Shown here: positions 27,974-56,449 of the stretch, piece after piece
Numbering within the stretch: the first letter of the stretch is position 1
How the letters are laid out: the number at the start of each line of letters is the position of its first letter
Assembly: GCA_949752745.1 (NCBI GenBank)
Contig: OX457024.1
Span: forward strand, 106,293,692 to 106,357,691
DNA length: 64,000 nt
Reading direction: 5' to 3'
DNA from: Protula sp. h YS-2021
Taxonomy: Eukaryota > Annelida > Polychaeta > Sabellida > Serpulidae
The notes under the pieces: generated by a model
The model's input: only the letters and a program-made list of their open reading frames with translations
The model's database searches: none
What the model was told of the DNA's origin: nothing
Position numbers and translations under genes: made by a program

Positions 27974-27978
27974 TAACA

Positions 27979-28110: not shown

Positions 28111-28131
28111 AACAACAGAAACAAAGTCAAC

Positions 28132-29059: not shown

Positions 29060-29192
29060 ATATATGTTAGTTATAAACACATGTTAGTTATAAATACATG
29101 TTAGTTAAGTTACTATATTAGTTAAGTGATGTTGGTTGAGTTATAAAATAAAAGCTGTTCTGTTGAGAAGGTGGTTTTCATTCGGTGTGACC

Positions 29193-32034: not shown

Positions 32035-32042
32035 TTCCCATC

Positions 32043-33139: not shown

Positions 33140-33149
33140 AGAAAAAAAA

Positions 33150-35298: not shown

Positions 35299-35640
35299 TT
35301 AATTGATATAGGTATCATAGACATTACATCCGTGTTTGTAAATGCTATGAAAGCTTACATAACGCACATCACCAAACTTTATCACTTTAGCAGTTTCATG
35401 TTCAGACAGTTTCAGTTCATATCCTTCTTCATTTATGTCCATCACACGTATCCATGTCCATATATGTTGTGTCAGCTCAATGGATTTGGTACCCCGCATA
35501 AGTTGTATTCCTTCCTCTTTGAATTCAAGCGTCAGGTTCTTTCCAATCCAATGCTTGCAACAGCGCGTTCCATTCCACTGTGCTGAGGGTGATGATGTCG
35601 TAGTTTTCTGTAAGCTCGTCATGTTGGCGAAATTGTACAA
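35299..35640 (-). CDS. Possible PC4-like relative, minus strand (up to 113 aa)
   Basis: The strand-helix patterns NLTLEFKEEG to HIWTWIRVM and YELKLSEHETAKVIKFGD to RYVSFHSI resemble the half-repeats of the plus-strand tandem PC4-like protein, including RYVSF. The longest frame starts at 35640 but overlaps the previous gene end (35525) by 116 bases. A shorter start (MTSLQ) still overlaps. It may be expressed from within the upstream gene or be spliced. It is the last of the leftward genes. Confidence 0.5.
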   Translation of the reverse strand: MYNFANMTSLQKTTTSSPSAQWNGTRCCKHWIGKNLTLEFKEEGIQLMRGTKSIELTQHIWTWIRVMDINEEGYELKLSEHETAKVIKFGDVRYVSFHSIYKHGCNVYDTYIN

Positions 35641-35869
35641 ACACGTCTAGACCGTTCTCAGTCACACGCACTTCTAATTCATTTGAGACTGCTAGGAGAA
35701 AGCCGGGTATTCTCAACTTGTCTAGATAATCCTTCAACACGGATTGGTCATCAAGCGATAGGACGAGATACTGTCCAAAATGTCGTAGCACAATATCATC
35801 ACATAAGTTTCTCATGTATGAGAATCCATATGTTATGGGTTCATAATCCAACACATAGTCGTCTTCCAT
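35525..35869 (-). CDS. PC4-like protein, minus strand (114 aa)
   Basis: ELEVRVTENGLDVFVQFRQ, followed by IITLSTVEWNALLQAL, fits the PC4 strand-turn-helix end. The N-terminal part (NLCDDIVLRHFGQYLVLSL) may be a second, degenerate half. It starts six bases after the stop of the upstream gene, whose TAA overlaps a TATA-like GTATAAG (35874-35880). Likely a single-stranded-DNA-binding accessory of the polymerase; inferred from fold pattern. Confidence 0.55.
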   Translation of the reverse strand: MEDDYVLDYEPITYGFSYMRNLCDDIVLRHFGQYLVLSLDDQSVLKDYLDKLRIPGFLLAVSNELEVRVTENGLDVFVQFRQHDELTENYDIITLSTVEWNALLQALDWKEPDA

Positions 35870-35874
35870 CTTTC

Positions 35875-36249
35875 TTATACTCGGATGATGTCGAACAGTG
35901 GATGCTGTATAGCTTCTAGGAATCGTAAGATTGCGCGCCAGTTCTTGATATCAAAGAATATCAACTGTGCATAGGGTGTATCTGGCACAACTCCCTTATA
36001 ATCCTTTGGATAATCCTGTAAAAGATTTCTACAGAATGTCACACGTATCTTAGAATCATATTCAGCCACCGTCACTTCCAGTTTATTTTCAAGTCTGCGT
36101 TTAAACCCAGGTTCAAGCGATATGTTTTTAAAGTCTTTCCACACTTCAGATTTAAACCGATAAGCAGATATTCTCCGAGAACCCATCATCACTTCATTCC
36201 TCTCATTAACTTTAAGGTAGACACCATCGTCCAACATGAGTGCATTCAT
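35875..36249 (-). CDS. PC4-like protein, tandem halves, minus strand (124 aa)
   Basis: Two PC4-like halves can be read: GVYLKVNERNEVMMGSRR to FKSEVWKDFKNI, and LEVTVAEYDSKIRVTFCRN to LIFFDIKNWRAILRFLEAI. It begins 13 bases after the stop of the single-domain PC4 gene. Its TAA stop overlaps a GTATAAG motif that could serve the next gene. The paralogy with its neighbours is visible in the helix pattern and less so in identity. Confidence 0.55.
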   Translation of the reverse strand: MNALMLDDGVYLKVNERNEVMMGSRRISAYRFKSEVWKDFKNISLEPGFKRRLENKLEVTVAEYDSKIRVTFCRNLLQDYPKDYKGVVPDTPYAQLIFFDIKNWRAILRFLEAIQHPLFDIIRV

Positions 36250-36262
36250 GATTGTTACCTTG

Positions 36263-36607
36263 TTATGACTTGTCGTCTTGTCTGCGAAGCCTTTTATCCA
36301 CTTCTTTCACCTGCTTCTTCATCATTTTCCATTCAGGTATTGTCAGCAAAATTCCCTTTTTCGTTGGACGGTTTTTTCCAGTCCCCTCATCTCTGAGGTA
36401 TTTGCGAATGTTCACCACACCTTCATTACTTTGTTTCATAATCTTGATATACTTTCCATTGCCTAGAGAAAGCATTCCATCCCACGACTGTGGTGTTGGT
36501 GCTATCTCCACTTTTAATTTCTTGATGGTAGTGTCAGGATGTTTCACATTCATGTCTTTCACTGTATCAGCAAGAGTATCCATATCCGTTGTTGCAGATC
36601 TTTTCAT
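36263..36607 (-). CDS. PC4/Sub1-like ssDNA-binding protein, minus strand (114 aa)
   Basis: This one is clearly PC4-like: LGNGKYIKIMK, VNIRKYLRDEGTG, RPTKKGILLTIPEWKMMKKQ, in the order and spacing of the PC4 C-terminal domain, which dimerises and binds single-stranded DNA. The N-terminus is a Lys/Thr-rich extension. It is directly downstream of the polymerase gene, with a TATA box (36661-36669) 54 bases before the ATG. Protein-primed replication displaces single strands, so an SSB role is a natural inference. Confidence 0.85.
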   Translation of the reverse strand: MKRSATTDMDTLADTVKDMNVKHPDTTIKKLKVEIAPTPQSWDGMLSLGNGKYIKIMKQSNEGVVNIRKYLRDEGTGKNRPTKKGILLTIPEWKMMKKQVKEVDKRLRRQDDKS

Positions 36608-36660
36608 GTTGACGCTTCAGTGTTCACACCTCAACTGACTCTAAAGTTGAAGTGTCTCCC

Positions 36661-36669
36661 CCTTATATA
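36661..36669 (-). promoter_or_regulatory. TATA box overlapping the polymerase stop codon
   Basis: On the minus strand TATATAAGG contains the TAA stop of the polymerase gene (36665-36663). It is placed 54 bases before the PC4 gene start, like the plus-strand stop/TATA overlaps. Confidence 0.8.
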
Positions 36670-39600
36670 CTGTAATGTCCATGCGCCAAAGTGGAATAGC
36701 CATCACTCATCACATATCGCTTGTCATCAAAAGGAGAGAGAGCCACTTTCCTCAACTTCTCCGAGAAGATCTGATGGTTATGACTTCGTATGATGTGTCC
36801 TGTGGTCATCGTTTGCGTTTGGTTGAACAAACTGTCTCTATACTGCTGATGTTTCATCCGTCTTTGACACGCGCGAGTGATGCCTTTGGCCGTACGTTTT
36901 TCTTTCCCACCATACATCATACTATACATTTTCGGTCGAAGTCCAACAAACTCTTCAATGGGAATGCCCGCCGTCTCATCTTTCATTTTCCCAAGCACTT
37001 TCTTGTTCACGTTGGAATGCAGGAAATGATCTGGCGGATAGTCACTTGTGTCGAACAAGTCGGCATCTTCCTGCATGTCTTTGTAGATATCTTCCGTTTC
37101 TATGTCATAACATAGACTGTCGGTGTCGCTGAACAACAGCTTGGCGTCGGGATACTTGGTCATGATGTAGTTGTAATGAAAGTGGAACATGAGCACCTTG
37201 CTGAGGTCGAGAATGGTGAAACCAACTTGAATGGGTTTATCCAGAAGCAGATCCACTTTGCGCAAATGTACCGCGGTCAAATCTTCGTTGAAAATTCTAA
37301 ATTTGTGGAAGGACGGTTTGGCCACAAGTTTCTTGAACCGCTTTTCCTGGTGAACAAGTTCAACATTGATACGCTTTCTTACATTTTCCATGGTTTTGCC
37401 AAACACCGAGTTGTTCATCAATTTGAAAAAGTCTTTCTCAAACGGGTTCTTGGCCAACTTTCTCTTTTCCGTGTTCAAGGAGATGTATTTTGCCAACCAT
37501 TTGCTCTGTGCAAACATGATGGCACGATGCACCTTCGTGACTTTCAATCCCAGTGAGACATATTGCTGTAAATTTCTATAATGAAGTACATATTTCTTCT
37601 TGTCACACAAGTTGGGAATGAGCTTTTCACTAGGTTTGCCTTTCATGTTTAGATCTTTCCGTAGCTTCTGACTATGTTTTGACAATTCTCCCACTTTCAC
37701 ACATTTCCGTTCTGGAGCCACTGGGTAGTGATTATGACGATCATGGATTGAATATGGGTATTCCAAATCCACTTCTAAAATGTATCCAATCTCGTCATCT
37801 TCATCCACATCCATAAAGTCAATGGATTCTGGCTCGCTCACCCACATAAATCCACTTTCCGGCATGCTTTGCGACATAGCCCAGCCATACAAGTTGTTTG
37901 CATCCAGGTACGTCAAGTAGTTGGTCGGTTTCCTGGGATCGTAATCTGCTACGTAGGGGTTATTTGCTTTCGCATACTTGTGTGTGATGACAGATATTCC
38001 TCCACGTAGACCTTGTTCAACCATTTGGTACATGTCAATGTCGTTAATCAATTCCAATTTCACCTTTGTCGCTTTCAACATGGCATCCCAGGACAGTCCT
38101 GGCGCTGTATAGTAGTGAGCAGGATCTAATTCATACGTGTTGAGACATACGTGACGAAAGTTTTCAAACACGTCAGCCAGCAGCAACACATCTGATTTCA
38201 GGTACAAGTCATGGTATTCGCCAAATGTAGTACAGTGGAATGTCTCCCACACCTTCTGCGCATGCGCATAATCCTCATCGCTAATGTCTTCTTCACTGAG
38301 CAGACTGTAAAACTTGTCCTTGGACGGCAGTTGTGTTTCAGCAAACTTGGATGGCTCATCCACGTAATCATAAGGGTATACTCCCTTTCTCAACAGTAAC
38401 TCTTGTTGGTCACTATCGTGAATGTGTGACGTCATGTGATAAAAGTTGTCTTTCCCTTCTGCTGCCAGGTTGGAGACCAACTTCTGTAGAGAAGTACTCA
38501 TGAACTGAAAGCTGTCTGTAAATTTCAGATTGCTCATGGTGAATGCAATATATTTCTCAACGGTGTTGGGAATGACTGTAATCCTTTCGTTTTTAAACTT
38601 TCCAATTTCTTCCATGATCAAATGACTGTCATAGCCTCGTAAATTGTGGAAAAACACAGGAATGATGAAAGAATCTTTATCTCCCTGCTGATCTTTTCGA
38701 AGTCGAAATTGTAAATTGCATTCACTATGTGCAGCTCCGCGGTATTTGCCATTGATATGATCATGATCTCTCACACGATCTGCTCCTAGAGGCTCATGAC
38801 AAATGTAGCAATCTGTGGCGTTCTTATAATGCTCTTCATCTTCATGAGTCATCACCATTTTCTTTTTCTGTTGTAGACCATGCACAATACGATCACGTTC
38901 ATATACCATATGGTCTAAAAAGACTTTCACAGCATTATCGCCTCGATATAGGACTGGCGCACGTGTATCATATTGGCTGACAACCACATAGGCAAAGCTG
39001 TTTGGACGATGATGCTGATACTTGTCTCCTTCATGCTTTTTCGTGAAACATTCAAAGTCCGCATAAATGACAAACGGCGCTCGCTGTTGTTTGGCTACAT
39101 TCTTGAACTTGATGAAGGGTTCCTTGGGGAATGATAAACGTTGTGCTCCATGCTTGCCACACACTTCACGATGCTTGTCTAACAGATCTTGTCGCCTAAA
39201 CCCGTGAAGACAGTTGAAACAATAAAATGCTGCATGCTGATGGTTTGATCGATAAGCCATCAGTCTGCTGAAATTCTTGATGAGGCAGTAATGTCTTGTC
39301 TTGTCATTGCTAATCAAAAGTAAGTTGATTTCTCTGGCGCTGTTGGCGCTGGTGTTTCGACTGAGTTGTATGGGAACAACGACATCATGTTCATATCCAA
39401 ACACGTTAATGGACACATCATTCTCCTTTTCAAACTTTGGAATGTCTGTAATCGGTGTTGGAAATGTCATGCCTTCCACCTTCAATTCGTTCTCAAATAG
39501 CTTGTATTGATTCACACGGTATGGGTTGTTTGTTGAAGGGTGAAGGTGAGCCAATACAGACCATAAGAAGCACTTGTTGTCTTTATTCTGAATGTTTAAC

Positions 39601-40343
39601 ACACCTAATGTATTCTTTACTTTCTTCGGTAGTGGGATAAAACTGCTTGCTTCCAGTGGCGCTGACGTAGCTGTATGCACTTCAATGAATAATATGTTAT
39701 CCAACACCCAGCCAGAGCCTTGTCGCTCATGTTCATCAAACCTGGTAAATTCTTTATAGGCTTCTGGCAAGTCCTTCTCAATATCTGTTGGATTGTATGC
39801 TGCATACGTTGGACTACTGATGAAGGCATTATCCACTTGTTCTACCATCACGCCTTCAACATTTGGTGTCATTTTCTTGAAGCGTGCATGTACCACAATG
39901 TACCATTTCATGCCACGGTTTAACGTCTCTAGCAAATGTCTCTTGATTCTATTCTCTTGTTGTCGCATTTCAAGTAGCAAATCCGATCCATCTTCAGGCT
40001 CAAACCGTCTTTCCTGTGCGTTTTCACCAAGACTCACTCTTCTGCCTCTGCCTACTTGTCCTGTCTCTTTCTTTCTTTGTTCTTCATGAGACACATTTTC
40101 CATCTCAACACATGCATGCGTCTCAAACGCATCCAAAGATGGAAATATTTTAATACATTCACCGCAGAGGACTGGATCAGGTCTTTCAACACCATCTTGT
40201 ACCGTCTTTCGTCTCTTGGCTTCAATCCGCTCAACAAGCTCTTCGTGAGCACGTTTCATCCTAGCTGGTTTGCATGTATGTGCTACGAACAATTCCAGAG
40301 ATGGAAATGTTATATCGCAATCATGACAGTAGACTGTAGCCAT
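36663..40343 (-). CDS. Protein-primed DNA polymerase B (pPolB), 1226 aa
   Basis: This enzyme replicates the element from its termini. Exonuclease motifs: YADFECF (about 424), FFHNLRGYDSH (567), YLKSDVLLLADVF (717). Polymerase motifs: DANNLYGWAMSQSMP (819), NNSVFGKTMENV (979), DTDSLCYD (1075). The N-terminus has two C2H2-like fingers (YCHDCDITF and CGECIKIF), another near CFNCLHGF, and a DHDHINGKYRGAAH Zn/HNH-like block at about 532. I start at MATVYC (40343): the longer frame (40412) would begin only a few bases after the TATA box (40417-40425), and its extra part is a translated gtt repeat. The stop lies inside the next promoter. Confidence 0.97.
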   Translation of the reverse strand: MATVYCHDCDITFPSLELFVAHTCKPARMKRAHEELVERIEAKRRKTVQDGVERPDPVLCGECIKIFPSLDAFETHACVEMENVSHEEQRKKETGQVGRGRRVSLGENAQERRFEPEDGSDLLLEMRQQENRIKRHLLETLNRGMKWYIVVHARFKKMTPNVEGVMVEQVDNAFISSPTYAAYNPTDIEKDLPEAYKEFTRFDEHERQGSGWVLDNILFIEVHTATSAPLEASSFIPLPKKVKNTLGVLNIQNKDNKCFLWSVLAHLHPSTNNPYRVNQYKLFENELKVEGMTFPTPITDIPKFEKENDVSINVFGYEHDVVVPIQLSRNTSANSAREINLLLISNDKTRHYCLIKNFSRLMAYRSNHQHAAFYCFNCLHGFRRQDLLDKHREVCGKHGAQRLSFPKEPFIKFKNVAKQQRAPFVIYADFECFTKKHEGDKYQHHRPNSFAYVVVSQYDTRAPVLYRGDNAVKVFLDHMVYERDRIVHGLQQKKKMVMTHEDEEHYKNATDCYICHEPLGADRVRDHDHINGKYRGAAHSECNLQFRLRKDQQGDKDSFIIPVFFHNLRGYDSHLIMEEIGKFKNERITVIPNTVEKYIAFTMSNLKFTDSFQFMSTSLQKLVSNLAAEGKDNFYHMTSHIHDSDQQELLLRKGVYPYDYVDEPSKFAETQLPSKDKFYSLLSEEDISDEDYAHAQKVWETFHCTTFGEYHDLYLKSDVLLLADVFENFRHVCLNTYELDPAHYYTAPGLSWDAMLKATKVKLELINDIDMYQMVEQGLRGGISVITHKYAKANNPYVADYDPRKPTNYLTYLDANNLYGWAMSQSMPESGFMWVSEPESIDFMDVDEDDEIGYILEVDLEYPYSIHDRHNHYPVAPERKCVKVGELSKHSQKLRKDLNMKGKPSEKLIPNLCDKKKYVLHYRNLQQYVSLGLKVTKVHRAIMFAQSKWLAKYISLNTEKRKLAKNPFEKDFFKLMNNSVFGKTMENVRKRINVELVHQEKRFKKLVAKPSFHKFRIFNEDLTAVHLRKVDLLLDKPIQVGFTILDLSKVLMFHFHYNYIMTKYPDAKLLFSDTDSLCYDIETEDIYKDMQEDADLFDTSDYPPDHFLHSNVNKKVLGKMKDETAGIPIEEFVGLRPKMYSMMYGGKEKRTAKGITRACQRRMKHQQYRDSLFNQTQTMTTGHIIRSHNHQIFSEKLRKVALSPFDDKRYVMSDGYSTLAHGHYSI

Positions 40344-40416
40344 CGTTGTTGTTGTTGTTGTTGTTGCTGTTGTTGTTGCTAGAACTGAAATGAGGCGAAA
40401 TATACGTTTCACTCTT

Positions 40417-40425
40417 CCTTTTATA
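40417..40425 (-). promoter_or_regulatory. TATA box of the DNA polymerase gene
   Basis: TATAAAAGG on the minus strand is followed by aagagtgaaac, the same downstream word seen after the left-TIR TATA box. It is about 75 bases before the chosen ATG. Confidence 0.75.
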
Positions 40426-40559
40426 CCACTTCAATGATGCGTAACTTGTTGACTTAGCAGAATTTATCACTGTTTGAAATGCATGTTTCACTCATGCTCT
40501 TATGCTACTTACATGTAATTAGAATATGGTGTGTAACTTGTTTCAAATATTGTTAAAAT

Positions 40560-40690
40560 CGCTAACTCAGCAGAATTTATCACTGCTTGGATATGAATCA
40601 TTTCACTTACAGTTGTACAGTTGTTATACAGCAGAGACATCTGGCGGTGAAGCTTGACGATGGTATTCATCCGCAAAATAACACACGGCC
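40560..40690. repeat. Internal copy of TIR subterminal sequence
   Basis: The block gaatttatcactgcttggat, gttgttatacagcagagaca and one unit of the gtattcatccgc array repeats sequence from the right TIR (about 43036-43150) inside the element. It abuts the 162-bp array. Confidence 0.8.
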
Positions 40691-42290
40691 ACTGTAAACT
40701 GAATCAAACGGTAAAATTTACTTGAAAATCGGTTAATTATGACGGAAGTTATCTCATTTTTTTTTCACTTTTTACACAGGGAAAATGGCGGTATGTCACA
40801 TTATGCATACAGCCACCGGTGTAAATAGCCCGTGACCACTTAATGCTAAAACTTTACATAAAACTGAATCAAACAGTGAAATTTTCATGCAAATCCGTCA
40901 ACTATAGCGAAAGTTATCCCACTTTTTCACTTTTTACAAACTTAAAATGGCGTCATGTCACATTATGCATACAGCCACCGGTGTAAATAGCCCGTGACCA
41001 CCTAATGTTAAAAATTTACATAAAACTGAATCAAACAGTGAAATTTTCAGGCAAATCCGTCAACTATAGCGAAAGTTATCCCCCTTTTTCACTTTTTACA
41101 AAGTTAAAATGGCGACATGTCACATTATGCATACAGCCACCGGTGTAAATAGCCCGTGACCACTTAATGCTAAAACTTTACATAAAACTGAATCAAACAG
41201 TGAAATTTTCATGCAAATCCGTCAACTATAGCGAAAGTTATCCCACTTTTTCACTTTTTACAAACTTAAAATGGCGTCATGTCACATTATGCATACAGCC
41301 ACCGGTGTAAATAGCCCGTGACCACCTAATGTTAAAACTTTACATAAAACTGAATCAAACAGTGAAATTTTCAGGCAAATCCGTCAACTATAGCGAAAGT
41401 TATCCCACTTTTTCACTTTTTACAAAGTTAAAATGGCGACATGTCACATTATGCATACAGCCACCGGTGTAAATAGCCCGTGACCACTTAATGCTAAAAC
41501 TTTACATAAAACTGAATCAAACAGTGAAATTTTCATGCAAATCCGTCAACTATAGCGAAAGTTATCCCACTTTTTCACTTTTTACAAACTTAAAATGGCG
41601 TCATGTCACATTATGCATACAACCACCGGTGTAAATAGCCCGTGACCACTTAATGTTAAAACTTTACATAAAACTGAATCAAACAGTGAAATTTTCAGGC
41701 AAATCCGTCAACTATAGCGAAAGTTATCCCACTTTTTCACTTTTTACAAACTTAAAATGGCGTCATGTCACATTATGCATACAATCACCGGTGTAAATAG
41801 CCCGTGACCACTTAATGTTAAAACTTTACATAAAACTGAATCAAACAGTGAAATTTTCATGTAAATCGGTCAACTATAGCGAAAGTTATCCCACTTTGTC
41901 ACTTTTTGCAAAAGTTAAAATGGCGGCATGTCACATTATGCATACAGCCACCGGTGTAAATAGCCTATGACTACTTAATGTTAAAACTACATATAAAACC
42001 GAATCAAACGGTAAAATTTTCATGCAAATCGGTTAATTATGACGGAAGTTATCTCATTTTTTCCACTTTTTACAAAGTTAAAATGGCGGCATGTCATATT
42101 ATGCATACAGCCACATGCGAAAATAGCCTGTGACCACTTTATAACAAAAACTTTACATAAAACTCAATCAAACAGTGAAATTTTCATGCAAATCGATCAA
42201 CCATAGCTTAAGTTATCCCACTTTTTCCACTTTTTACAAAGTTAAAATGGCGGCATGTCATATTATGCATACAGCCACATGCGAAAATAG
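40690..42290. repeat. Tandem array, 162-bp unit, 10 copies, partly dimeric
   Basis: The landmark tgtcacattatgcatacagc recurs at 40794, 40956, 41119, 41280, 41442, 41604, 41766, 41929, 42092 and 42256 (spacing 161-164). Copies 2-5 alternate between two types (gcgtc/gcgac before the landmark, aatgtta/aatgcta after it), a 324-bp higher-order pattern. Non-coding; it may be an intron upstream of the polymerase gene. Confidence 0.93.
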
Positions 42291-42297
42291 CCTGCAT

Positions 42298-42358
42298 AGC
42301 AACGGCGGTTGCTATGCGGATCCACTGCATAGCAACGGTTGCTATGCGGGACTACTGC
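42298..42358. repeat. Pair of hairpins built on gcatagcaac/gttgctatgc
   Basis: Two adjacent stem-loops have arms gcatagcaac and gttgctatgc. In the first copy the arms are separated by ggcg; in the second, little or nothing lies between them. They lie between the 162-bp and 100-bp arrays. Confidence 0.8.
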
Positions 42359-42435
42359 ATTGGAGTATGAGTGGAGTGAAACAGTGATGTGTATAGCTGT
42401 GCATGTGGTTGCAGCCCTGCTGGAGTGGGTTGCGA

Positions 42436-42835
42436 TGCGCTTGTGACGAGATCGTCTCGTCGAAATGCCTACTGCACACGGAACAGGAGCGAAATGTTAT
42501 ATTTCGTCATGCGAAGCAACGTATGTGGGTAGCGCTGCGCTTGTGACGAGATCGTCTCGTCGAAATGCCTACTGCACACGGAACAGGAGCGAAATGTTAT
42601 ATTTCGTCATGCGAAGCAACGTATGTGGGTAGCGATGCGCTTGTGACGAGATCGTCTCGTCGAAATGCCTACTGCACACGGAACAGGAGCAAAATGTTAT
42701 ATTTCGTCATGTGAAGCAACGTATGTGGGTAGCGATGCGCTTGTGACGAGATCGTCTCGTCGAAATGCCTACTGCACACGGAACAGGAGCGAAATGGTAT
42801 ATTTCGTCATGTGAAGTAACTTATGGAAGAAGTGA
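42436..42835. repeat. Tandem array, 100-bp unit, 4 copies
   Basis: Units start at 42436, 42536, 42636 and 42736 with very few differences. Each carries the hairpin gacgaga-tcg-tctcgtc. No coding potential. Confidence 0.93.
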
Positions 42836-42910
42836 GGGACGACGAGCCCGACGACCCCCACGACGACCCCCATTATGTTAGTTTTTAAAAACATATGTAA
42901 ATAACCACTT

Positions 42911-42967
42911 ACCGAAATAGCTGCCATCCTTGTTGTATCCATAGTGCGGAGAGCTCATCCTTATATA
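42911..42967 (-). promoter_or_regulatory. TATA box and short leader with splice donor at inner edge of right TIR
   Basis: Minus-strand TATATAAGG (42967-42959) begins just inside the TIR boundary. About 45 bases later comes a cg|gtaagtgg donor (exon end 42913). A closely similar leader (TATAAGG at 48140, donor gtaagtggttatt at 48196) occurs in the neighbouring dimer element. A possible acceptor (ctcatttcag) lies upstream of the polymerase ATG near 40388. Confidence 0.6.
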
Positions 42968-43769
42968 CAACTCTGATGTAATCAAAATATGGTATGTAAC
43001 TCGCCAAACAGAACTTTGTTTTAAAAGCTGACTTGGCAGAATTTATCACTGCTTGGATATGAATCATTTCACCTACAGTTGTACAGTTGTTATACAGCAG
43101 AGACATCTGGTGGTGAAGCGAAATGGTATTCATCCGCCAAATGGTATTCATCCGCTAAATGGTATTCATCCGCCAAATGGTATTCATCCGCCAAATGGTA
43201 TTCATCCGCTAAATGGCATTCATCCGCCAAATGGTATTCATCCGCGAAATAACACAGGAAATAACTGAATCAAATGGTGAAATTTTTATGTAAATCAGTC
43301 AACTATAACGAAAGTTACCCCTCTTTTTCACTTTTACACAGTTAAAACGGCGACATGTTACAAATATAAGTTCATCACTTCAACGGAAGTCCGTTATCTC
43401 AAATTACGAAAACAAAATGACGTTTACGCACACTCTGCTCTGACGTTTACCCTTCGTCATCCCAACACGCGCGCGCGCTCCATCCAAAAACTGAAGCAGA
43501 TAAAAACAAACAGACACTATGACGTCACTTCCGGTCCAGACATGATCACGGCACTTCCAGACATGACGTCACTTCCGGTCCAGACAGTATGACGTCACAA
43601 AGTGAGCTGATTCCACACTTCCGGTCCAGACAGTATGACGTCACAAAGTGAGCTGATTCCACACTTCCGGTCCAGACAGTATGACGTCACAAAGTGAGCT
43701 GATTCCACACTTCCGGTCCAGACAGTATGACGTCACAAAGTGAGCTGATTCCGGCCTTTTTACCCTACT
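42964..43769 (-). repeat. Polinton right terminal inverted repeat (806 bp)
   Basis: Complement of 24787-25700, shorter by six 18-bp units. It holds the mirrored CRE/ETS-like array (about 43510-43752) and a seven-copy 18-bp array (43127-43243). It ends TTTTTACCCTACT and is followed by the target duplication gttcaa. Confidence 0.95.
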
Positions 43770-43798
43770 GTTCAACATGTTCAACATGTTGTTCAAGT
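43770..43798. repeat. Remnant GTTCAAC array between the two elements
   Basis: gttcaacatgttcaacatg and gttgttcaagt separate the Polinton end from the AGTAGGG start of the dimer. The first six bases are the right target duplication of the Polinton. Confidence 0.9.
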
Positions 43799-43829
43799 AG
43801 TAGGGAAAGGGGGTTTCTACTGCACTTTG

Positions 43830-43912
43830 TGACGTCATACTGTCTGGAAGTGACGTCATCATGTCTGGAAGTGACGTCATCATGTCTGGACCGGAAGTGA
43901 CGTCATAGACGT
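43830..43912. promoter_or_regulatory. CRE/ETS-like sites next to left end of dimer
   Basis: Four gtgacgtca sites and one ACCGGAAGTG site lie within 85 bases, interspersed with gtctgg words as in the Polinton TIR. Mirror copy at about 52000-52080. Confidence 0.8.
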
Positions 43913-43980
43913 AGTCATAAGCATAGCCATGTAGCCGTAGCCGTAACCCTGACAGTGGAACCAACGTTTGGTTTTGCATT

Positions 43981-44008
43981 GCAGTGGAACCAACGTTGGT
44001 TCCACTGC
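43981..44008. repeat. Perfect 28-bp palindrome
   Basis: gcagtggaaccaac followed by its exact complement. A half-site copy lies just before it (43953-43970). The right arm keeps the counterpart at about 51900-51927. The subterminal position suggests a protein-binding or replication site, unproven. Confidence 0.9.
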
Positions 44009-44205
44009 AGAATCGGCAGATGGTAGACAGACGGTCAGACGGGCAGACGGACAGACGGTAACTTTTTTTTTTCCATTTCCCACACTCTCATGCATACACA
44101 TATACCAACACAATGATAAACTGTTTTGCTTATTTTGTAATAAGTTGCGGCTGCTCTAAGGCAGCCAGGAGCTCACGCCCCCCCATTGTATTAGTAGTCT
44201 CCTCA

Positions 44206-44904
44206 CTATGGCAGAGACCACTGAGAAGCTTTACAAGAGCACTTCCGCCTATTCCTTGCAATCGTAGCCACCGTTGATTTAAAAGTATCGTTCGATACAG
44301 AGCAGAAGTATGCCTGGATCCGCCCAGCTTCTGCACAATGTAAAACATGCTGCTCAATACCGATATCGGTAGGCAGCACTGTTTTGCACATAGTGCAGGA
44401 GTTGGTGGATCCACCATTCAACCCGTTCAGAATGAGCATAACTTCTTCCATATTATCTTTGGTGGGTTGTTCAGCAATCAGACTACTCTTGCTTACAGAG
44501 GCAGAAGCGTCCTGTAAGTTCTCAGCAGAAGTCTGCGCAGGTGAGGAGACGACGGTCGCAGTCCTCTGCCTCTTCCTTGGTGGAGACGGTAGTGGCAGCG
44601 GCAGTGGCAGTTGCGGTGGAGGTGTCAACGGTGCTGCAGCAGACTCCGTAGCTGTATCGGCAGGCTTAGGGGCTGGTCTAGCAGGCTCTGGAGCTGTGAG
44701 CGCGGCAGGCTGAGGAGCTGGCTGCAGGAAGCCAGGCCTCTGAAATCGGTGCCGCTGCTGTTCTTGCCGATATTTCTCCTCCATCTTTCTTAACCGTAAG
44801 CGTTCATAATCCAAGAACATCTCCTCTACCAACGACACATCTCTTTCGGTGATGTTGTAATGTCGAAGCGCTTCTGGAGCAAAAAATTCTTCTTTGTATT
44901 CCAT
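44206..44904 (-). CDS. Pro-rich C2H2 zinc-finger protein, left arm, intact (232 aa)
   Basis: Not a named family. From MEYKEEFFAPEALRHYN the protein has a charged coiled segment (RLRLRKMEEKYRQEQQRHR), a long Pro/Ala-rich middle, a nuclear-localisation-like PPRKRQR, and a C-terminal zinc finger (CTMCKTVL with HVLHC), then a basic Cys-containing tail. The start at 44904 is preferred; the frame extends upstream to 44985. It looks like a nuclear DNA-binding or regulatory protein. The right-arm twin (51033-51703) has a 28-base deletion near its N-terminus. Confidence 0.7.
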   Translation of the reverse strand: MEYKEEFFAPEALRHYNITERDVSLVEEMFLDYERLRLRKMEEKYRQEQQRHRFQRPGFLQPAPQPAALTAPEPARPAPKPADTATESAAAPLTPPPQLPLPLPLPSPPRKRQRTATVVSSPAQTSAENLQDASASVSKSSLIAEQPTKDNMEEVMLILNGLNGGSTNSCTMCKTVLPTDIGIEQHVLHCAEAGRIQAYFCSVSNDTFKSTVATIARNRRKCSCKASQWSLP

Positions 44905-45549
44905 TTTTTTTTTGAAAACGTTTGCCTTGTAGAGTATGCGTACAAAATGGCGTCGTACAACTTGTAAACCGCAGCATTTCGTCATCTAAAGCCAGCGTAA
45001 TCAGACCGCGTCATCTATAGCAAGCTTAATCAGATTGCGTAATCAGACTTCGTCATAAACAACGTAGACAATGGTGTGTAGCTTTTTGTTTGAGCAAATG
45101 GCTAGCAACCTGAGAGTCCCGGGATCCATCCCCCATCAGGGCAAAACTTTTTTTTTGGTTTTTTTTTGTTTTTTGTTCACTTTTATGACTGTGTGACATT
45201 ATGTGATAACATGTGACTGTGACATCATGTGACTCTGTAACATTATGTGACTCTGTGACTTTTTTTATTTTTTATTTTTTTTTATTATTATTATTTATAT
45301 GATAATATTTAATTAGTCATATTTCAATGGTTTCCCATTACAGTAACCACACACAGCATAAGTACATGTGTACAGAGTGTGGGGGGAAAACCGACTGAGA
45401 AATTTCAGAGTGCACTCGTACAGAGTGTGGAAACGATCAATAAATTTGAGAAGGAATGTGATTTTCCCTACGTTAAGTCCAATGTTATGTTTTAAGTTAT
45501 AGTAGTTGGAAAATGACACTTCTAAAACACATTTAACAAATGTAGTTTT

Positions 45550-45990
45550 TTTGATAACATATAATATATAAAATAAGTTTGAATATTTTAGCATGCTACT
45601 TATTTGAATGTTCTAAAGTTATAGTAGTGGAAAAATGGTGGTTCTAGACCAACTTTAACAAATTTAGGTTTTAACACCATATGATATATAAAATAAGTTT
45701 GAACATTTTAGCACGCTACTTATTTGAATATTCTAATGTCATAGCAGTGGAAAAATGGTGATTCTAGACCAATTTTAACAAATTTTGTTTTTTGACAAAA
45801 TATGATGTATAAAATAAGTTTGAACATTTTACCATGGTGTAGTAGGGTAAAAATAAGGGTTCTAGACCAACTTTAACAAATTTTGTTTTTTGACAAAATA
45901 TGATGTATAAAATAAGTTTGAACATTTTACCATGGTGTAGTAAGGTAAAAATCAGGGTTCTAAACCAACTTTAACAAATTCAGTTTTTTT
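45550..45990. repeat. Tandem array of about 100-bp units with degenerate terminal motifs
   Basis: Four to five units each contain aaaataagtttgaacatttt and gttctagaccaactttaac. Two units carry AGTAGGGTAAAAATAAGGG (45841) or agtaaggtaaaaa (45939), the terminal motif of the element family. Mirror copy at about 49950-50385. Confidence 0.8.
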
Positions 45991-46194
45991 TACACGTTTC
46001 AGACGATTCTACCACTTGGTTGATTGGTTGATTGTTGGAAAATGAAAAGTGAAAATGTGGATAGTTATGTAGGAAAACTGCGCCCATTCAAAAGACGTGT
46101 TCGAATGGCAAGCCCATTTTAAAGACGTGTTCGAATGGTAAGCCCATTCAAAACACGTGTTCGAATAATTTTTGAAAGATATTACGTCGTGGTA

Positions 46195-46352
46195 TTGTTC
46201 AACAAATTGTTCAACATGTTCAACAAGTTCAACATGTTCAACATGTTCAACATGTTCAACAGCATGCTCAACAAGTTGAACATGTTCAACATGTTCAACC
46301 TATTCAACATGTTCAACAACATGCTGTTTAACAAGTTGTTCAACAAGTTGTA
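46195..46352. repeat. GTTCAAC array, left arm, distal to zinc-finger gene
   Basis: Repeated gttcaacat and complement (atgttgaac) words; many adjacent words form short palindromes. ORFs rich in FNMFNM are products of the array. Confidence 0.9.
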
Positions 46353-46510
46353 GTTGAAGAAAAGAAAAAATAAGACATATGGTGAATAGGTTTATTTATA
46401 CACTTAAATACACTTAAATACACTTAAATATATACAGCTTAAATCTATAACAATATTATAACATTTATTGATTTACAAAGTCTTTATTATAAATGTTTAG
46501 TCAAATAAGT

Positions 46511-47224
46511 CTATTTTTCTTCATCTGCTTCACTCTGTTCACTGGAATCCATATCACTTTCTTCGTCACTGCTTTCATCTTCCTCCTCCTCATCTAGAAG
46601 CTCTTCAAAGAATGCATCGTTTCTTCTTATAGCCGCCTTTAGTGCCTTTGAATACTCGTAATGTTTTTCATCAACAAAGTAATTAAAGTCTTCTAAAATG
46701 GTTTCATAATGTTCGTTTTGTTGTAGGCGTTGGGCATATTTGAATAGTCTCATAAACAGTTGTTTAAGTCGACGCTTATAAATGGGTCGAAAGTCATCAC
46801 TTGCTATTTCACGCGCATCTTCAAGCCCTTGTTCTTCATATTCTGAAACCTTTTCTTGAAATTTGGTATCATATTCATCGTAGACTTCTTGAACCATATC
46901 ATACCAAACAGAGTCTGTTTCTGACTCACTTTCAGAGCTGCCGTCATCATCACCCTCAACACAATGTTCCATATGTTTGAACAAAGCTTCTTGACTGTTG
47001 TATAACGCACCACATTCTGTACAAGCATGTGCATTCTTTTCAGTCATGTTGACGCTTTGACTTTCCATAGAAGACTCATCTAAAGTTTCAGTGATAGGTG
47101 GTTTTACAGGGTTTTCCATATCTATCTCTAATTCTTCTTCTTCTGAAGTGTGAGCCTTCTTTAAGTGCCTGTTAAGACTTTGTGGCCAATTGTAAGATTT
47201 CGAACAAATGTTGCATTTATACAT
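46511..47224 (-). CDS. Two-finger C2H2 protein with acidic tail, left arm, intact (237 aa)
   Basis: Finger 1 is C4/C7/H20/H25 (MYKCNICSKSYNWPQSL, RHLKKAH). Finger 2 is CTECGALYNSQEALFKHMEHC-like at about 68-88. A helical domain follows (VWYDMVQEVYDEYD, FRPIYKRRLKQLFMRLFKYA), then a strongly acidic tail (DEEEEDESSDEESD). A TATA box (47285-47277, minus) lies about 55 bases upstream. It is probably a nuclear regulator; an acidic tail could activate transcription or mimic DNA. The right-arm twin has lost finger 2 and part of finger 1. Confidence 0.8.
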   Translation of the reverse strand: MYKCNICSKSYNWPQSLNRHLKKAHTSEEEELEIDMENPVKPPITETLDESSMESQSVNMTEKNAHACTECGALYNSQEALFKHMEHCVEGDDDGSSESESETDSVWYDMVQEVYDEYDTKFQEKVSEYEEQGLEDAREIASDDFRPIYKRRLKQLFMRLFKYAQRLQQNEHYETILEDFNYFVDEKHYEYSKALKAAIRRNDAFFEELLDEEEEDESSDEESDMDSSEQSEADEEK

Positions 47225-47276
47225 CCTTTCGGTTCAACATGCACTTTTCAAATGATGAAAAAGCCTTTAAACATAG

Positions 47277-47285
47277 CCTTATATA
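47277..47285 (-). promoter_or_regulatory. TATA box of left-arm zinc-finger gene
   Basis: Minus-strand TATATAAGG, next to a GTTCAAC array (47287-47358). The mirror box is at 48838-48846 on the plus strand. Confidence 0.75.
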
Positions 47286-47286
47286 C

Positions 47287-47358
47287 AACTTGTTGAACAA
47301 CATGTTGAACAACATGTTCAACAAGTTCAACATGTTCAACATGTTGTTGAACATGTTG
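47287..47358. repeat. GTTCAAC array upstream of left-arm zinc-finger gene
   Basis: Alternating gttgaacaacatgttcaac words. Its counterpart in the right arm is at about 48766-48836. Confidence 0.88.
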
Positions 47359-47654
47359 TCTAGGGTTATGCCGCTTAGCAGAGTCTTATGTCATGACGTC
47401 ATTATGACGTCATCACATCATCATTATAATGTCATGGTGACGTCATTCGAACAGGCGCGTGCTTTATCAAAAACTGACTCAGCAGAATTTATCACTGGTT
47501 GACATGTTTCATTCATGCTTTTATGCTACTTACATGTAATCAAAATATGTTGTGTAACTTTTCAAACGTGTTTAAAAATTGTTGACTCAGTAGATAGTTG
47601 CTTGATATGAATGTCTCACTTACAGTTGTATCACTTACAGTTGTACTGCTGTAC

Positions 47655-47870
47655 AGTAGGGTGAAAAGGGGGTTCTGGACCACTTGATGACGTCATACTG
47701 TCTGGAAGTGACGTCATACTGTCTGGAAGTGACGTCATAGCGTCTGGACCGGAAGTGACGTCTGGACCGGAAGTGACGTCATGATAAACGTAAGGATAGG
47801 CGCGGCCATCCATGACGTGATAATGACGTCATGATGACGTCATACTGTCTGGAGCGAAAGTTGCTTGATA
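47655..47870. repeat. Internal AGTAGGG terminus with CRE/ETS-like sites
   Basis: AGTAGGGTGAAAAGGGGGTT begins exactly where left-arm homology stops. Repeated gtgacgtca and ACCGGAAGTG sites follow. It is built like a true element end, so 47655-52109 may be one complete unit. Confidence 0.8.
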
Positions 47871-47959
47871 GGGTGCTCTGGCCGAGTCAATCATCATGAA
47901 GCTAATGAACTCCACCTGTCAATCAGTGTAACCATGGCAACAGACCCTAAAAAGCCATG

Positions 47960-48080
47960 CCCCCCTAGGACATACTATGTACCGACCCCCCCCCCCCCCC
48001 AGAGCATACTATGTACCCCCCCCCAGAGCATACTATGTACCCCCCCCTAGGACATACTATGTACCGACCCCCCCCTAGGC
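47960..48080. repeat. Tandem catactatgtac/poly-C units
   Basis: Four units of a catactatgtac word separated by C-runs. Related words (gacatagtatgtcctagg) occur inverted near 52920. Confidence 0.85.
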
Positions 48081-48139
48081 GAGCAACATTCTGTCAAGTC
48101 AGCTGAAACCAACAGCTGTTTGACGAGGTCTGAGTGGCA

Positions 48140-48196
48140 TATAAGGCATAAACTCCCCACTCACATGAACTGCAGCAATGGTGGTGACCATATCAG
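48140..48196 (+). promoter_or_regulatory. TATA box and leader with splice donor in dimer centre
   Basis: TATAAGG at 48140-48146, a short leader and the donor gtaagtggttattt at 48196. It matches the right-TIR leader of the Polinton in layout and donor sequence, pointing toward the right-arm genes. Confidence 0.6.
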
Positions 48197-48837
48197 TAAG
48201 TGGTTATTTGCATAGGTGGTTATAAGCATTATTGTAAACAAAAACTTTCATTATAGTTGGTTGATTTACATGAAAATTTCACTGTTTGATTCAGTTTTAT
48301 GTAAAGTTTTAACATGATCATAGGCTATTTGCGCAGCTGGTTGTATGCATTTTTACCGCCATTTTAACTTAAAATTGTGATAACTTTCGTTATAGTTGAC
48401 TGAAAATTTCACCATTACAGTGCTTCTTCGCGGATGAATACCATTTAGCAGACTATTTGACTTCACCGTCAGATGTCTCTGCTGTGCAGCAGTACAACTG
48501 TAAGTGAGACATTCATATCAAGCAACTATCTACTGAGTCAACAATTTTTAAACACGTTCGAAAAGTTACACAACATATTTTGATTACATGTAAGTAGCAT
48601 AAAAGCATGAATGAAACATGTCAACCAGTGATAAATTCTGCTGAGTCAGTTTTTGATAAAGCACGCGCCTGTTCGAATGACGTCACCATGACGTTATAAT
48701 GATGATGTGATGACGTCATAATGACGTCATGACGTAAGACTCTGCTAAGCGGCATAACCCTAGACAACATGTTCAACAACATGTTGAACATGTTGAACTT
48801 GTCGAACATGTTGTTCAACATGTTGTTCAACAAGTTG

Positions 48838-48846
48838 TATATAAGG
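48838..48846 (+). promoter_or_regulatory. TATA box of right-arm zinc-finger gene copy
   Basis: TATATAAGG, mirror of 47277-47285. It is followed after about 30 bases by the new upstream ATG at 48879. Confidence 0.7.
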
Positions 48847-48878
48847 CTATGTTTAAAGGCTTTTTCATCATTTGAAAA

Positions 48879-49358
48879 GTGCATGTTGAACCGAAAGGAT
48901 GTATAAATGCAACATTTGTTCGAAATCTTACAATTGGCCACAAAGTCTTAACAGGCACTGTTTGGTATGATATGGTTCAAGAAGTCTACGATGAATATGA
49001 TACCAAATTTCAAGAAAAGGTTTCAGAATATGAAGAACAAGGGCTTGAAGATGCGCGTGAAATAGCAAGTGATGACTTTCGACCCATTTATAAGCGTCGA
49101 CTTAAACAACTGTTTATGAGACTATTCAAATATGCCCAACGCCTACAACAAAACGAACATTATGAAACCATTTTAGAAGACTTTAATTACTTTGTTGATG
49201 AAAAACATTACGAGTATTCAAAGGCACTAAAGGCGGCTATAAGAAGAAACGATGCATTCTTTGAAGAGCTTCTAGATGAGGAGGAGGAAGATGAAAGCAG
49301 TGACGAAGAAAGTGATATGGATTCCAGTGAACAGAGTGAAGCAGATGAAGAAAAATAG
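48879..49358 (+). pseudogene. Right-arm zinc-finger gene, fingers deleted, C-terminal domain retained
   Basis: Relative to the left arm, about 253 bases are missing between the first finger and the helical domain. The original start (48899) now runs into a stop soon after the junction. An upstream ATG (48879) in another frame happens to read across the junction and restores the frame of the helical and acidic domains, giving a 159-codon ORF without intact fingers. Whether this is expressed is unknown. Confidence 0.8.
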
Positions 49359-49514
49359 ACTTATTTGACTAAACATTTATAATAAAGACTTTGTAAATCA
49401 ATAAATGTTATAATATTGTTATAGATTTAAGCTGTATATATTTAAGTGTATTTAAGTGTATTTAAGTGTATAAATAAACCTATTCACCATATGTCTTATT
49501 TTTTCTTTTCTTCA

Positions 49515-49740
49515 ACTACAACTTGTTGAACAACTTGTTAAACAGCATGTTGTTGAACATGTTGAATAGGTTGAACATGTTGAACATGTTCAACTTGTTG
49601 AGCATGTTGTTGAACATGTTGAACATGTTGAACATGTTCAACTTGTTGAACATGTTGAACGTGTTGAACATGTTGAACATGTTGAACATGTTGAACATGT
49701 TGAACTTGTTGAACATGTTGAACAATTTGTTGAACAATAC
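49515..49740. repeat. GTTCAAC array, right arm
   Basis: Same array as 46195-46352 but about 70 bases longer, showing that the array changes length faster than the arms diverge. Confidence 0.9.
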
Positions 49741-51032
49741 CACGACGTAATATCTTTCAAAAATTATTCGAACACGTGTTTTGAATGGGCTTACCATTCG
49801 AACACGTCTTTAAAATGGGCTTGCCATTCGAACACGTCTTTTGAATGGGCGCAGTTTTCCTACATAACTATCCACATTTTCACTTTTCATTTTCCAACAA
49901 TCAACCAATCAACCAAGTGGTAGAATCGTCTGAAACGTGTAAAAAAAAACTAAATTTGTTAAAGTTGGTTTAGAACCCTGATTTTTACCTTACTACACCA
50001 TGGTAAAATGTTCAAACTTATTTTATACATCATATTTTGTCAAAAAACAAAATTTGTTAAAGTTGGTCTAGAACCCTTATTTTTACCCTACTACACCATG
50101 GTAAAATGTTCAAACTTATTTTATACATCATATTTTGTCAAAAAACAAAATTTGTTAAAATTGGTCTAGAATCACCATTTTTCCACTGCTATGACATTAG
50201 AATATTCAAATAAGTAGCGTGCTAAAATGTTCAAACTTATTTTATATATCATATGGTGTTAAAACCTAAATTTGTTAAAGTTGGTCTAGAACCACCATTT
50301 TTCCACTACTATAACTTTAGAACATTCAAATAAGTAGCATGCTAAAATATTCAAACTTATTTTATATATTATATGTTATCAAAAAAACTACATTTGTTAA
50401 ATGTGTTTTAGAAGTGTCATTTTCCAACTACTATAACTTAAAACATAACATTGGAATTAACGTAGGGAAAATCACATTCCTTCTCAAATTTATTGATCGT
50501 CCCCACACTCTGTACGAGTGCACTCTGAAATTTCTCAGTCGGTTTTTCCCCCCACACTCTGTACACATGTACTTATGCTGTGTGTGGTTACTGTAATGGG
50601 AAACCATTGAAATATGACTAATTAAATATTATCATATAAATAATAATAATAAAAAAAATAAAAAATAAAAAAAGTCACAGAGTCACATAATGTTACAGAG
50701 TCACATGATGTCACAGTCACATGTTATCACATAATGTCACACAGTCATAAAAGTGAACAAAAAACAAAAAAAAAAACCAAAAAAAAAGTTTTGCCCTGAT
50801 GGGGGATGGATCCCGGGACTCTCAGGTTGCTAGCCATTTGCTCAAACAAAAAGCTACACACCATTGTCTACGTTGTTTATGACGAAGTCTGATTACGCAA
50901 TCTGATTAAGCTTGCTATAGATGACGCGGTCTGATTACGCTGGCTTTAGATGACGAAATGCTGCGGTTTACAAGTTGTACGACGCCATTTTGTACGCATA
51001 CTCTACAAGGCAAACGTTTTCAAAAAAAAAAT

Positions 51033-51703
51033 GGAATACAAAGAAGAATTTTTTGCTCCAGAAGCGCTTCGACATTACAACAGAGGAGATGTTCTTGGAT
51101 TATGAACGCTTACGGTTAAGAAAGATGGAGGAGAAATATCGGCAAGAACAGCAGCGGCACCGATTTCAGAGGCCTGGCTTCCTGCAGCCAGCTCCTCAGC
51201 CTGCCGCGCTCACAGCTCCAGAGCCTGCTAGACCAGCCCCTAAGCCTGCCGATACAGCTACGGAGTCTGCTGCAGCACCGTTGACACCTCCACCGCAACT
51301 GCCACTGCCGCTGCCACTACCGTCTCCACCAAGGAAGAGGCAGAGGACTGCGACCGTCGTCTCCTCACCTGCGCAGACTTCTGCTGAGAACTTACAGGAC
51401 GCTTCTGCCTCTGTAAGCAAGAGTAGCCTGATTGCTGAACAACCCACCAAAGATAATATGGAAGAAGTTATGCTCATTCTGAACGGGTTGAATGGTGGAT
51501 CCACCAACTCCTGCACTATGTGCAAAACAGTGCTGCCTACCGATATCGGTATTGCGCAGCATGTTTTACATTGTGCAGAAACTGGGCGGATCCAGGCATA
51601 CTTCTGCTCTGTATCGAACGATACTTTTAAATCAACGGTGGCTACGATTGCAAGGCATAGGCGGAAGTGCCCTTGTAAAGCTTCTCAGTGGTCTCTGCCA
51701 TAG
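51033..51703 (+). pseudogene. Right-arm Pro-rich zinc-finger gene, frameshifted
   Basis: A 28-base deletion after the ninth to sixteenth codons of the MEYKEEF frame shifts it, so that start no longer reaches the body. A longer frame from 50975 enters the correct frame downstream of the deletion and keeps the Pro-rich region, NLS-like PPRKRQR and finger, but with an unrelated N-terminus. The body is otherwise almost identical to the left-arm copy. Confidence 0.75.
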
Positions 51704-52109
51704 TGAGGAGACTACTAATACAATGGGGGGGCGTGAGCTCCTGGCTGCCTTAGAGCAGCCGCCACTTATTACAAAATAAGCAAAACAGTTTATCATTGTG
51801 TTGGTATATGTGTATGCATGAGAGTGTGGGAAATGGAAAAAAAAAGTTACCGTCTGTCCGTCTGCCCGTCTGACCGTCTGTCTACCATCTGCCGATTCCG
51901 CAGTGGAACCAACGTTGGTTCCACTGCAATGCAAAACCAAACGTTGGTTCCACTGTCAGGGTTACGGCTACGGCTACATGGCTATGCCTATGACTACGTC
52001 TATGACGTTACTTCCGGTCCAGACATGATGACGTCACTTCCAGACATGATGACGTCACTTCCAGACAGTATGACGTCACAAAGTGCAGTAGAAACCCCCT
52101 TTCCCTACT

Positions 52110-52520
52110 ACTTGTTCAACATGTTGTTCAACATGTTGAACAACATATTGAACATGTTGAACATCTTGAACTTGTTGAACAACATGTTCAACATGTTTAA
52201 AATGTTGAACAACTTGTTGAACAATTGTCAAACAACTTGTTAAAAAACTTGTTGAATAATATCATGATGCAATATGTTCCAAAAATAATTCGAACACATG
52301 CTTGAATGGGAGCGGTCTTCCTACATCACCAACCAAAGAAAAATATATATATATATAGCAAATAAACATAACAAAGAATTTCACTTACCTCACATTTTCA
52401 CTTTCGATCCTCCAACCAACCAATCAACCAACCAAACCAACCAATCAATTAATCAATCAATCAACCAACCAATCAACCAACCAACCAACCAACTAACCAA
52501 CCAACCAAGTCTTGCCTAAC
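52110..52520. mobile_element. Remnant of an older copy of the dimer family (right flank)
   Basis: The dimer end is followed by a degenerate GTTCAAC array (to about 52250) and then by sequence colinear with 49735-49920 (aattcgaacac, cttgaatggg, ttcctacat, accaaccaatcaaccaa). So the dimer lies within the GTTCAAC array of an earlier element of its own family. Confidence 0.75.
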
Positions 52521-56447: not shown

Positions 56448-56449
56448 TT

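Follow-up and report, generated by a model that had tools for sequence, protein, structure and literature searches.

The window, that is, the whole stretch of 64,000 nucleotides analysed here (contig C1, 106.29-106.36 Mb, of the 863-Mb genome of Protula sp.), contains at 43796-52112 an inverted pair with Polinton-type ends, as seen by comparison of the window with itself. We lean towards the explanation that this element is one of a large family of Polinton satellites which carry genes of their own, have self-complementary genomes and would be mobilised in trans and copied on full-length hairpins. The anatomy of the satellites is observed directly, and from it we infer the hairpin cycle. The original prediction had described a non-autonomous element with Polinton ends, a description supported by the absence of the genes of the neighbouring Polinton and by the presence of plausible helpers in the same genome.

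The inverted arms, 43769-46919 and 52142-48950, are 96.4% identical over 3221 aligned columns, gaps included, and a second inverted block (47164-47630 against 48959-48493) is 99.1% identical over 467 columns; over 3552 gap-free positions the identity is 98.6%. The element has a terminal inverted repeat (TIR) of the AGTAGGG type, with AGTAGTAGGG at both ends (43796 and 52112), so that the near-identical inverted arms with such ends, as predicted, are borne out. AGTAGGG also occurs inside the element as an additional terminus at 47655, and the object therefore consists of one complete unit of 4458 bp and an inverted partial copy of it. The predicted subterminal arrays are likewise present: TGACGTCA occurs 19 times in the element and CCGGAAGT four times, against 0.14 and 0.11 expected from 100 first-order simulations. 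We take these sites to be CRE-like and ETS-like, respectively. The features of the element are listed below in window coordinates; a unit position is the window position minus 47654.

43790..43795: left flank, TGTTCA, candidate target-site duplication inside a GTTCAACATG array
43796..47654, minus strand: left arm, a partial inverted copy of the unit that runs inward from the outer AGTAGTAGGG terminus
44206..44985, minus strand: gene A, left copy, a frame of 259 amino acids (aa)
46511..47224, minus strand: zinc-finger gene, left copy, 237 aa, an open frame with two C2H2 fingers and an acidic tail
47655..52112, plus strand: complete unit, 4458 bp, with inverted terminal repeats (ITRs) of about 110 bp at both ends
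47655..47763, plus strand: inner (left-type) terminus, AGTAGGGTGAAAAGGGGG, with a CRE/ETS-like array, joined to the left arm at 47654/47655
47688..48629, plus strand: stretch 94% identical to an end of a Polinton on contig C3 (C3:42.76-42.78 Mb), including what lies upstream of its polymerase-position frame
48879..49358, plus strand: right copy of the zinc-finger gene, about 244 bp shorter than the left one through an internal deletion
50975..51703, plus strand: gene A, right copy, with 26 bp deleted relative to the left copy
52004..52112, minus strand: outer (right-type) ITR, AGTAGTAGGGAAAGGGGG from the outer end inward
52113..52118: right flank, TGTTCA, the same 6 bp outside both ends

The two arms had been predicted to be near-identical. 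They are inverted as described, but not equal: on the right, the zinc-finger gene is shorter by about 244 bp and gene A by 26 bp. The left arm, in turn, lacks about 0.84 kb at the inner end of the unit (the first ~0.84 kb in unit coordinates) and carries a small tandem duplication beside the joint. Both the sequence of the joint and that of the inner terminus occur only once in the genome at up to three mismatches. The TGTTCA duplication is weak evidence when taken alone, because both flanks lie within a GTTCAACATG-type array. This array is found at the insertion site (43770-43795 and 52113-52310) and also inside satellites (unit 1107-1185 and 1863-2085), and may be either a tandem repeat common to both or a preferred site of insertion.

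None of the 25 frames (≥ 100 aa) of the neighbouring Polinton matches 43796-52112 (tblastn, E up to 1e-3), in agreement with the stated lack of integrase, polymerase and capsid genes; by this comparison the element is without the set that defines an autonomous Polinton, namely protein-primed polymerase B, RVE integrase, ATPase, protease and capsid genes. Two zinc-finger genes had been assigned to each arm. The assignment is correct for the product of 46511-47224, which matches PF13912 (E 1e-9) and PF00096 (E 6.3e-7), both above the curated Pfam cut-off, and incorrect for 44206-44985 (gene A), in which no C2H2 finger reaches that cut-off and no Pfam family is matched at E up to 1. A search of the protein collection (2223 candidates, E up to 0.001) likewise gave no homologue of gene A, and its marker (≤ 3 mismatches) is confined to 5 sites at 4 loci in the genome.

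Parts of the unit are present at many places in the genome, and eleven satellites, the window copy included, were read at both ends. The ten others are as follows.

L039: palindrome, 5357 bp, flanking repeat TCAAATA
L040: palindrome, 5923 bp, flanking repeat TGTAAAA
L047: palindrome, 7112 bp, flanking repeat CACTGG
L048: palindrome, 8148 bp, flanking repeat AGATAG
L050: palindrome, 7055 bp, flanks in repeats, as in the window copy
L049: shorter inverted arms, flanking repeat TGTGAG
C2:61.19 Mb: shorter inverted arms, flanking repeat ATCAAA
C5:27.63 Mb: shorter inverted arms, flanking repeat CATACA
C10: arms now matching poorly, flanking repeat CAGAAC
L013 (C5:1.83 Mb): single unit with short ITRs (324 bp), 3381 bp, flanking repeat AACAAC

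Five of these ten are near-complete palindromes of 5.4-8.1 kb, each with two divergent zinc-finger genes and with arms that match at 99.3-99.9% across 97.7-99.9% of the half. The inverted arms of L049 and of the elements at C2:61.19 Mb and C5:27.63 Mb cover 0.53-0.74 of the half and stand around one zinc-finger gene, which in the latter two adjoins a PC4-like gene of 180 aa (PF02229, E 3.7e-10). Direct repeats of 6-7 bp outside simple repeats flank nine of the eleven satellites, two of the nine being best read as 7 bp; four of the five full palindromes have such duplications, and the fifth (L050) lies in a repeat. The termini read AGTAGGG or a variant of it, for example AGTAGTTG, and carry CRE/ETS-like arrays. 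The outermost 25 bases vary among the elements, but within an element both ends match in eight of the eleven, differing by one base in L047 and L013 and by more in C10, which agrees with the comparison of arms below. Single units of about 4.4 kb with 6-bp duplications had been suggested as something to look for; L013 is such a single unit, but it is 3381 bp long and its modules are ordered differently from those of the window unit. That the satellites might be full-length elements of another type was rejected, no large frame being found in those read (frames listed from 80 or 110 aa) beyond the zinc-finger, gene A, PC4-like and repeat-array frames.

A search for further copies of the zinc-finger gene, also suggested earlier, revealed a large family: its marker (34 bases, ≤ 2 mismatches) has 2186 sites in the genome (control 0), and a marker for the PC4-like gene has 617 (control 0). 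Among the best 150 of 6572 candidate zinc-finger places, 76 are paired at distances below 2.5 kb; 36 of these 38 pairs are divergent, one is direct and one convergent. Similarly, among the exact marker sites, the first 100 (all on C1) include 19 neighbours within 2.5 kb (17 divergent, one convergent, one direct). Three unpaired sites were examined. In L060 a single zinc-finger gene stands between inverted arms (94% over 1011 bp); the PC4-like gene is present in L061, with an inverted arm of 257 bp, and in L062, where no inverted arm of 200 bp is seen within the 3.6 kb examined. Since 76 of the 150 places are paired and the three unpaired sites are of these kinds, about half of the listed zinc-finger copies are not placed in two-gene palindromes.

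The symmetry of the satellites is both inherited and renewed. One palindrome centre, represented by a 34-base pattern, has 98 sites in the genome (76 exact, 19 with one mismatch and three with two; control 0), two of which are only 66 bases apart. The inner arms (up to 1650 bp) of eleven elements with this centre were compared. The arms of one element differ by 0.24-0.56% in ten of them and by 2.0% in the eleventh (L057), and the mean difference between elements is 1.43%; the symmetry has therefore been renewed. If the centre had a single origin, mutations would be expected in one arm only, yet many have been copied to the other arm. Of 1211 gap-free columns, 76 are variable, with the minority base in both arms in 39, in one arm in 35 and mixed in two. 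Ten elements show 0-3 arm differences in these columns, and L057 accounts for 25 of the 39 within-element differences. The distance between two elements exceeds both within-element distances in 45 of the 55 pairs.

A tree was built from 35 copies of the zinc-finger gene; the two within L039 (99/93) form a pair in it, as do the two within L040 (99/97). The two copies are identical to each other only in L050, L051, L055, L057 and L059, and in L047, L052, L054 and L058 they are identical to each other and also across these four elements. Palindromy is thus common, inherited and renewed in the family. The inverted dimer had been put down to a replication accident, which fits the joint in the window, but an isolated event is not supported; because five full palindromes were read at different loci and 98 sites have one centre in common, an origin by accident only is rejected for the family. 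An accident is kept as the most likely origin of the joint in the window, which lies exactly at a terminus and is unique, as fits strand switching. The window copy is atypical in its gene A, its unique joint and its less similar arms, and is most simply seen as a rare, partly decayed variant that arose by a strand switch from a terminus into an inverted copy.

A link of the satellites to Polintons is seen in a second Polinton (C3:42760215-42777228), which is flanked by AAGCAT on both sides. Unit positions 34-975 are 94.1% identical to one end of it, and unit positions 1-94 match its other end at 95.8% over 95 columns. Upstream of the zinc-finger gene of the unit, 643 bp are 93.6% identical to the region upstream of the polymerase-position frame of this Polinton, a frame that is read in several pieces. 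Shorter stretches of the unit match the window Polinton, with 79.9% identity over 204 bp upstream of its polymerase-position frame and 74.7% over 217 bp upstream of its leftmost gene. With ends shared with the C3 Polinton and 6-bp duplications in its family, the window element has the features of a non-autonomous Polinton derivative. When the 25 frames of the window Polinton were compared with the eleven satellites (C10 partly covered), only the PC4-like frame matched; the satellite PC4-like protein is 40% identical to a Polinton gene product over 87 aa (E 6e-17). Neither of the two Polintons read contains a match for the zinc-finger protein or for gene A.

Candidate helpers are numerous. At least 107 integrase copies, 98-100% identical at the protein level, are found in the genome, all but two without an internal stop. 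This identity, together with that of the TIR of the window Polinton (99.5%), suggests recent Polinton activity, probably a recent burst in this genome. Only one of the 107 listed integrase copies, that in the window, has a listed zinc-finger copy within 20 kb. The core stretches of the C3 and window Polintons are mostly 91-95% identical and their termini are different; the ends of Polintons seem to be exchanged faster than the core.

The zinc-finger gene is under constraint, as seen between the two main branches of the family. The ratio of nonsynonymous to synonymous substitution rates (dN/dS, computed by NG86) is 0.34-0.39 in six comparisons between these branches. Outside this genome, three relatives of the protein are found in the protein collection, as also looked for at the suggestion of the original prediction; they are 33-50% identical over the alignment and lie on contigs of 820-1597 bases. 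No relative is found in IMG/VR. The zinc-finger protein may regulate transcription or bind to the shared upstream region.

The proposed mechanism is as follows. The satellites have kept Polinton-type termini and, in the window unit, also the sequence upstream of the polymerase-position frame, with the two-finger zinc-finger gene standing in place of that frame and, in one branch, with a PC4-like gene as well. Replication and insertion would be supplied in trans by Polintons; the shared ends and the lack of polymerase and integrase genes point to movement by means of both helper enzymes, and the expression of the zinc-finger gene would probably follow that of the helper polymerase. A protein-primed polymerase would start at a terminus and displace one strand, which, because the genome is a palindrome, would fold back on itself as a full-length hairpin whose terminus is duplex. 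Copying round the hairpin would rebuild a symmetric duplex, to be inserted by the Polinton integrase with a 6-bp duplication. Such a cycle would explain both the same changes in the two arms and the one centre common to many loci. In adenovirus, according to PMC9863843, the displaced strand forms a panhandle through its ITRs and serves as a template for initiation; a palindromic genome would turn the whole strand into a panhandle.

It may further be supposed, as a tentative and somewhat doubtful extension, that in this lineage the whole-length palindromes are held by selection. The hairpin would have its own origin and would need no single-strand-binding protein, the genome would be re-symmetrised in each round, and the satellite would gain two copies of a regulatory gene under a promoter taken over from the helper polymerase gene.

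Several alternatives may be weighed against copying on hairpins. The arms of Y-chromosome palindromes are kept alike by intramolecular gene conversion, and the satellite palindromes could likewise have arisen once or a few times and been kept alike by intrachromosomal conversion without hairpin replication. The likeness of arms within elements and the one-sided differences in some of them (L057) agree with this. Conversion would, however, have to act separately at each of the ten of eleven loci with 0-3 differences in 1211 columns, and both outer ends of an element share the variable end sequence of that element; we regard this explanation as unlikely. The satellites could also be ordinary non-autonomous deletion derivatives, that is, Polintons without the middle, with long inverted repeats that are incidental. 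The unit is indeed 94% identical to a Polinton end and the PC4-like gene has a Polinton homologue, but no homologue of the zinc-finger gene or of gene A is present in the two Polintons read, comparison between branches shows constraint on the zinc-finger protein, and the palindromes recur. This reading, already weakened, is decidedly improbable.

Fold-back chimeras are a known source of false palindromes, and the palindromes were read from an assembly. Nevertheless, symmetry stops at the termini, the flanks differ, direct repeats bracket whole palindromes, the arms carry differences, and one centre recurs at 98 sites. Because the arms differ, the symmetry ends at the termini and the same architecture is found at other loci, an assembly or long-read fold-back artefact is extremely improbable. 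For the window copy only, the pair could have formed after insertion, by a complete unit landing at or beside an older inverted copy. The complete unit with both termini (47655-52112) and the unique inner joint are in accord with such an event, but the 6 bp bracketing the whole 8.3 kb match, albeit in a repeat array, and the left arm reaches the inner terminus with no visible direct repeat of the right flank; the chance of it seems rather small.

Other observations weigh against copying on hairpins in trans, or narrow what may be concluded from the comparisons above. The hairpin cycle is proposed from the anatomy of the sequences. The eleven elements sharing a centre were chosen because both of their zinc-finger copies were already listed, so that symmetric ones are favoured, and the pairwise site patterns (679 both-arm, 496 single-copy, five others) indicate that one-sided changes are frequent too. 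L057, C10 and the window copy are poorly symmetrised, and the two zinc-finger copies of L053 and of L056 are not exclusive pairs in the tree. The zinc-finger frames are interrupted in L040 (both copies) and at C2:61.19 Mb, and within branches dN/dS is 0.40, 0.42, 0.65 and 0.99 in four comparisons (dS 0.015-0.037); the protein is constrained over longer times, though not demonstrably over the shortest. The separation of the gene from its presumed helper is that of a sample, 150 listed zinc-finger places and 107 listed integrase copies. Since the termini of the satellite and of the window Polinton differ beyond AGTAGGG, and the inner terminus has no second match at three mismatches, helpers are matched by type only. 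Finally, the polymerase of these Polintons is recognised by its position and short motifs, not by a profile.

Polintons (Mavericks) are thought to stand near the root of many eukaryotic DNA viruses, and to our knowledge little is known about their replication or their parasites. The satellites resemble them in their AGTAGGG-type termini, TIRs, 6-bp target duplications and subterminal arrays, with a unit end 94% identical to that of a Polinton. They differ in length (3.4-8.6 kb, compared with 17.0 and 19.0 kb for the two Polintons read), in their own zinc-finger gene and whole-length palindromes, and in that, of the 25 frames, they share only the PC4-like one, and this in one branch. Non-autonomous elements as such are well known. 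The satellites share with non-autonomous derivatives of DNA transposons, such as MITE-like (miniature inverted-repeat transposable element-like) and Ds-like ones, the cis-acting ends and the movement presumed to occur in trans, but carry a constrained protein gene, and many are inverted duplicates. Defective adenoviruses with inverted-duplicated ends and self-complementary adeno-associated viruses also have palindromic or self-complementary genomes; those, however, are by-products or vectors, whereas the satellites are an amplified chromosomal family. The likeness to adenovirus extends to protein-primed copying by means of panhandles (PMC9863843).

Virophages and transpovirons (compare PMC3671162) are likewise small elements with genes of their own that rely on a larger virus-like partner; the satellites differ in that their presumed helper, a Polinton, resides in the same genome and that neither a capsid nor a replication gene was found in the satellite. 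Teratorn, according to PMC6431247, has long inverted repeats and extra internal TIRs at an inner boundary, comparable to the terminus at 47655, but it is a herpesvirus-piggyBac element of 41-182 kb with unrelated genes. Tlr elements have earlier been suggested to be non-autonomous Polinton derivatives (PMC4028283). No Polinton satellite or palindromic Polinton derivative was found in the open-licence literature at the level of titles and abstracts (Repbase and subscription papers being outside this scope), and as far as the literature searched shows, self-complementary gene-carrying elements feeding on Polintons are undescribed. If the proposed explanation is true, Polintons can have gene-carrying satellites in the same genome, with 2186 sites, a constrained gene and a renewed palindrome; hairpin replication would become testable in a chromosomal element, and the many insertions flanked by target-site duplications would be a record of helper activity.

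The element adjoining the window copy, a candidate for the helper type, is a Polinton, as predicted, in view of its integrase, ATPase, TIR and duplication; its polymerase and capsid genes have no confirming profile. Its features are the following.

24787..43769, plus strand: adjacent Polinton, with a 652-bp TIR at 99.5% identity
29136-30299, plus strand: integrase, PF00665 (rve) and chromodomain (Pfam)
30269-30955, plus strand: packaging-type ATPase, PF02456/PF04665 (Pfam)
34520-34957, plus strand: adenovirus-protease-like frame, PF00770, E 3.9e-4, just below the Pfam cut-off
within 36263-36607, minus strand: PC4-like gene
36663-40412, minus strand: frame of 1249 aa at the polymerase position, with DFEC (452) and DTDS (1096)

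From its position and the DFEC and DTDS motifs, the 1249-aa frame is presumably a protein-primed polymerase. Pfam, PHROGs and PDB sequences yield no polymerase match for it, only an endonuclease-VII-like stretch (residues ~506-575), which lies between DFEC and DTDS. GTTCAA flanks this Polinton on both sides, within the same GTTCAACATG array as the satellite, the two elements being 26 bp apart in it.

At the left end of the unit, 48140-48492 contains a TATA-like box and possible splice sites, recognised by eye only, and may give another short spliced transcript. Two related genes stand in tandem near the left end of the Polinton (25717-26235 and 26287-26691; DNA 84.6% identical), with a relative at 57923-58402. 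The latter belongs to a degraded second Polinton fragment (56297-58405, minus strand), which is 76-84% identical to parts of 25765-31097 in reverse orientation and covers the integrase/ATPase and left genes of the intact Polinton.

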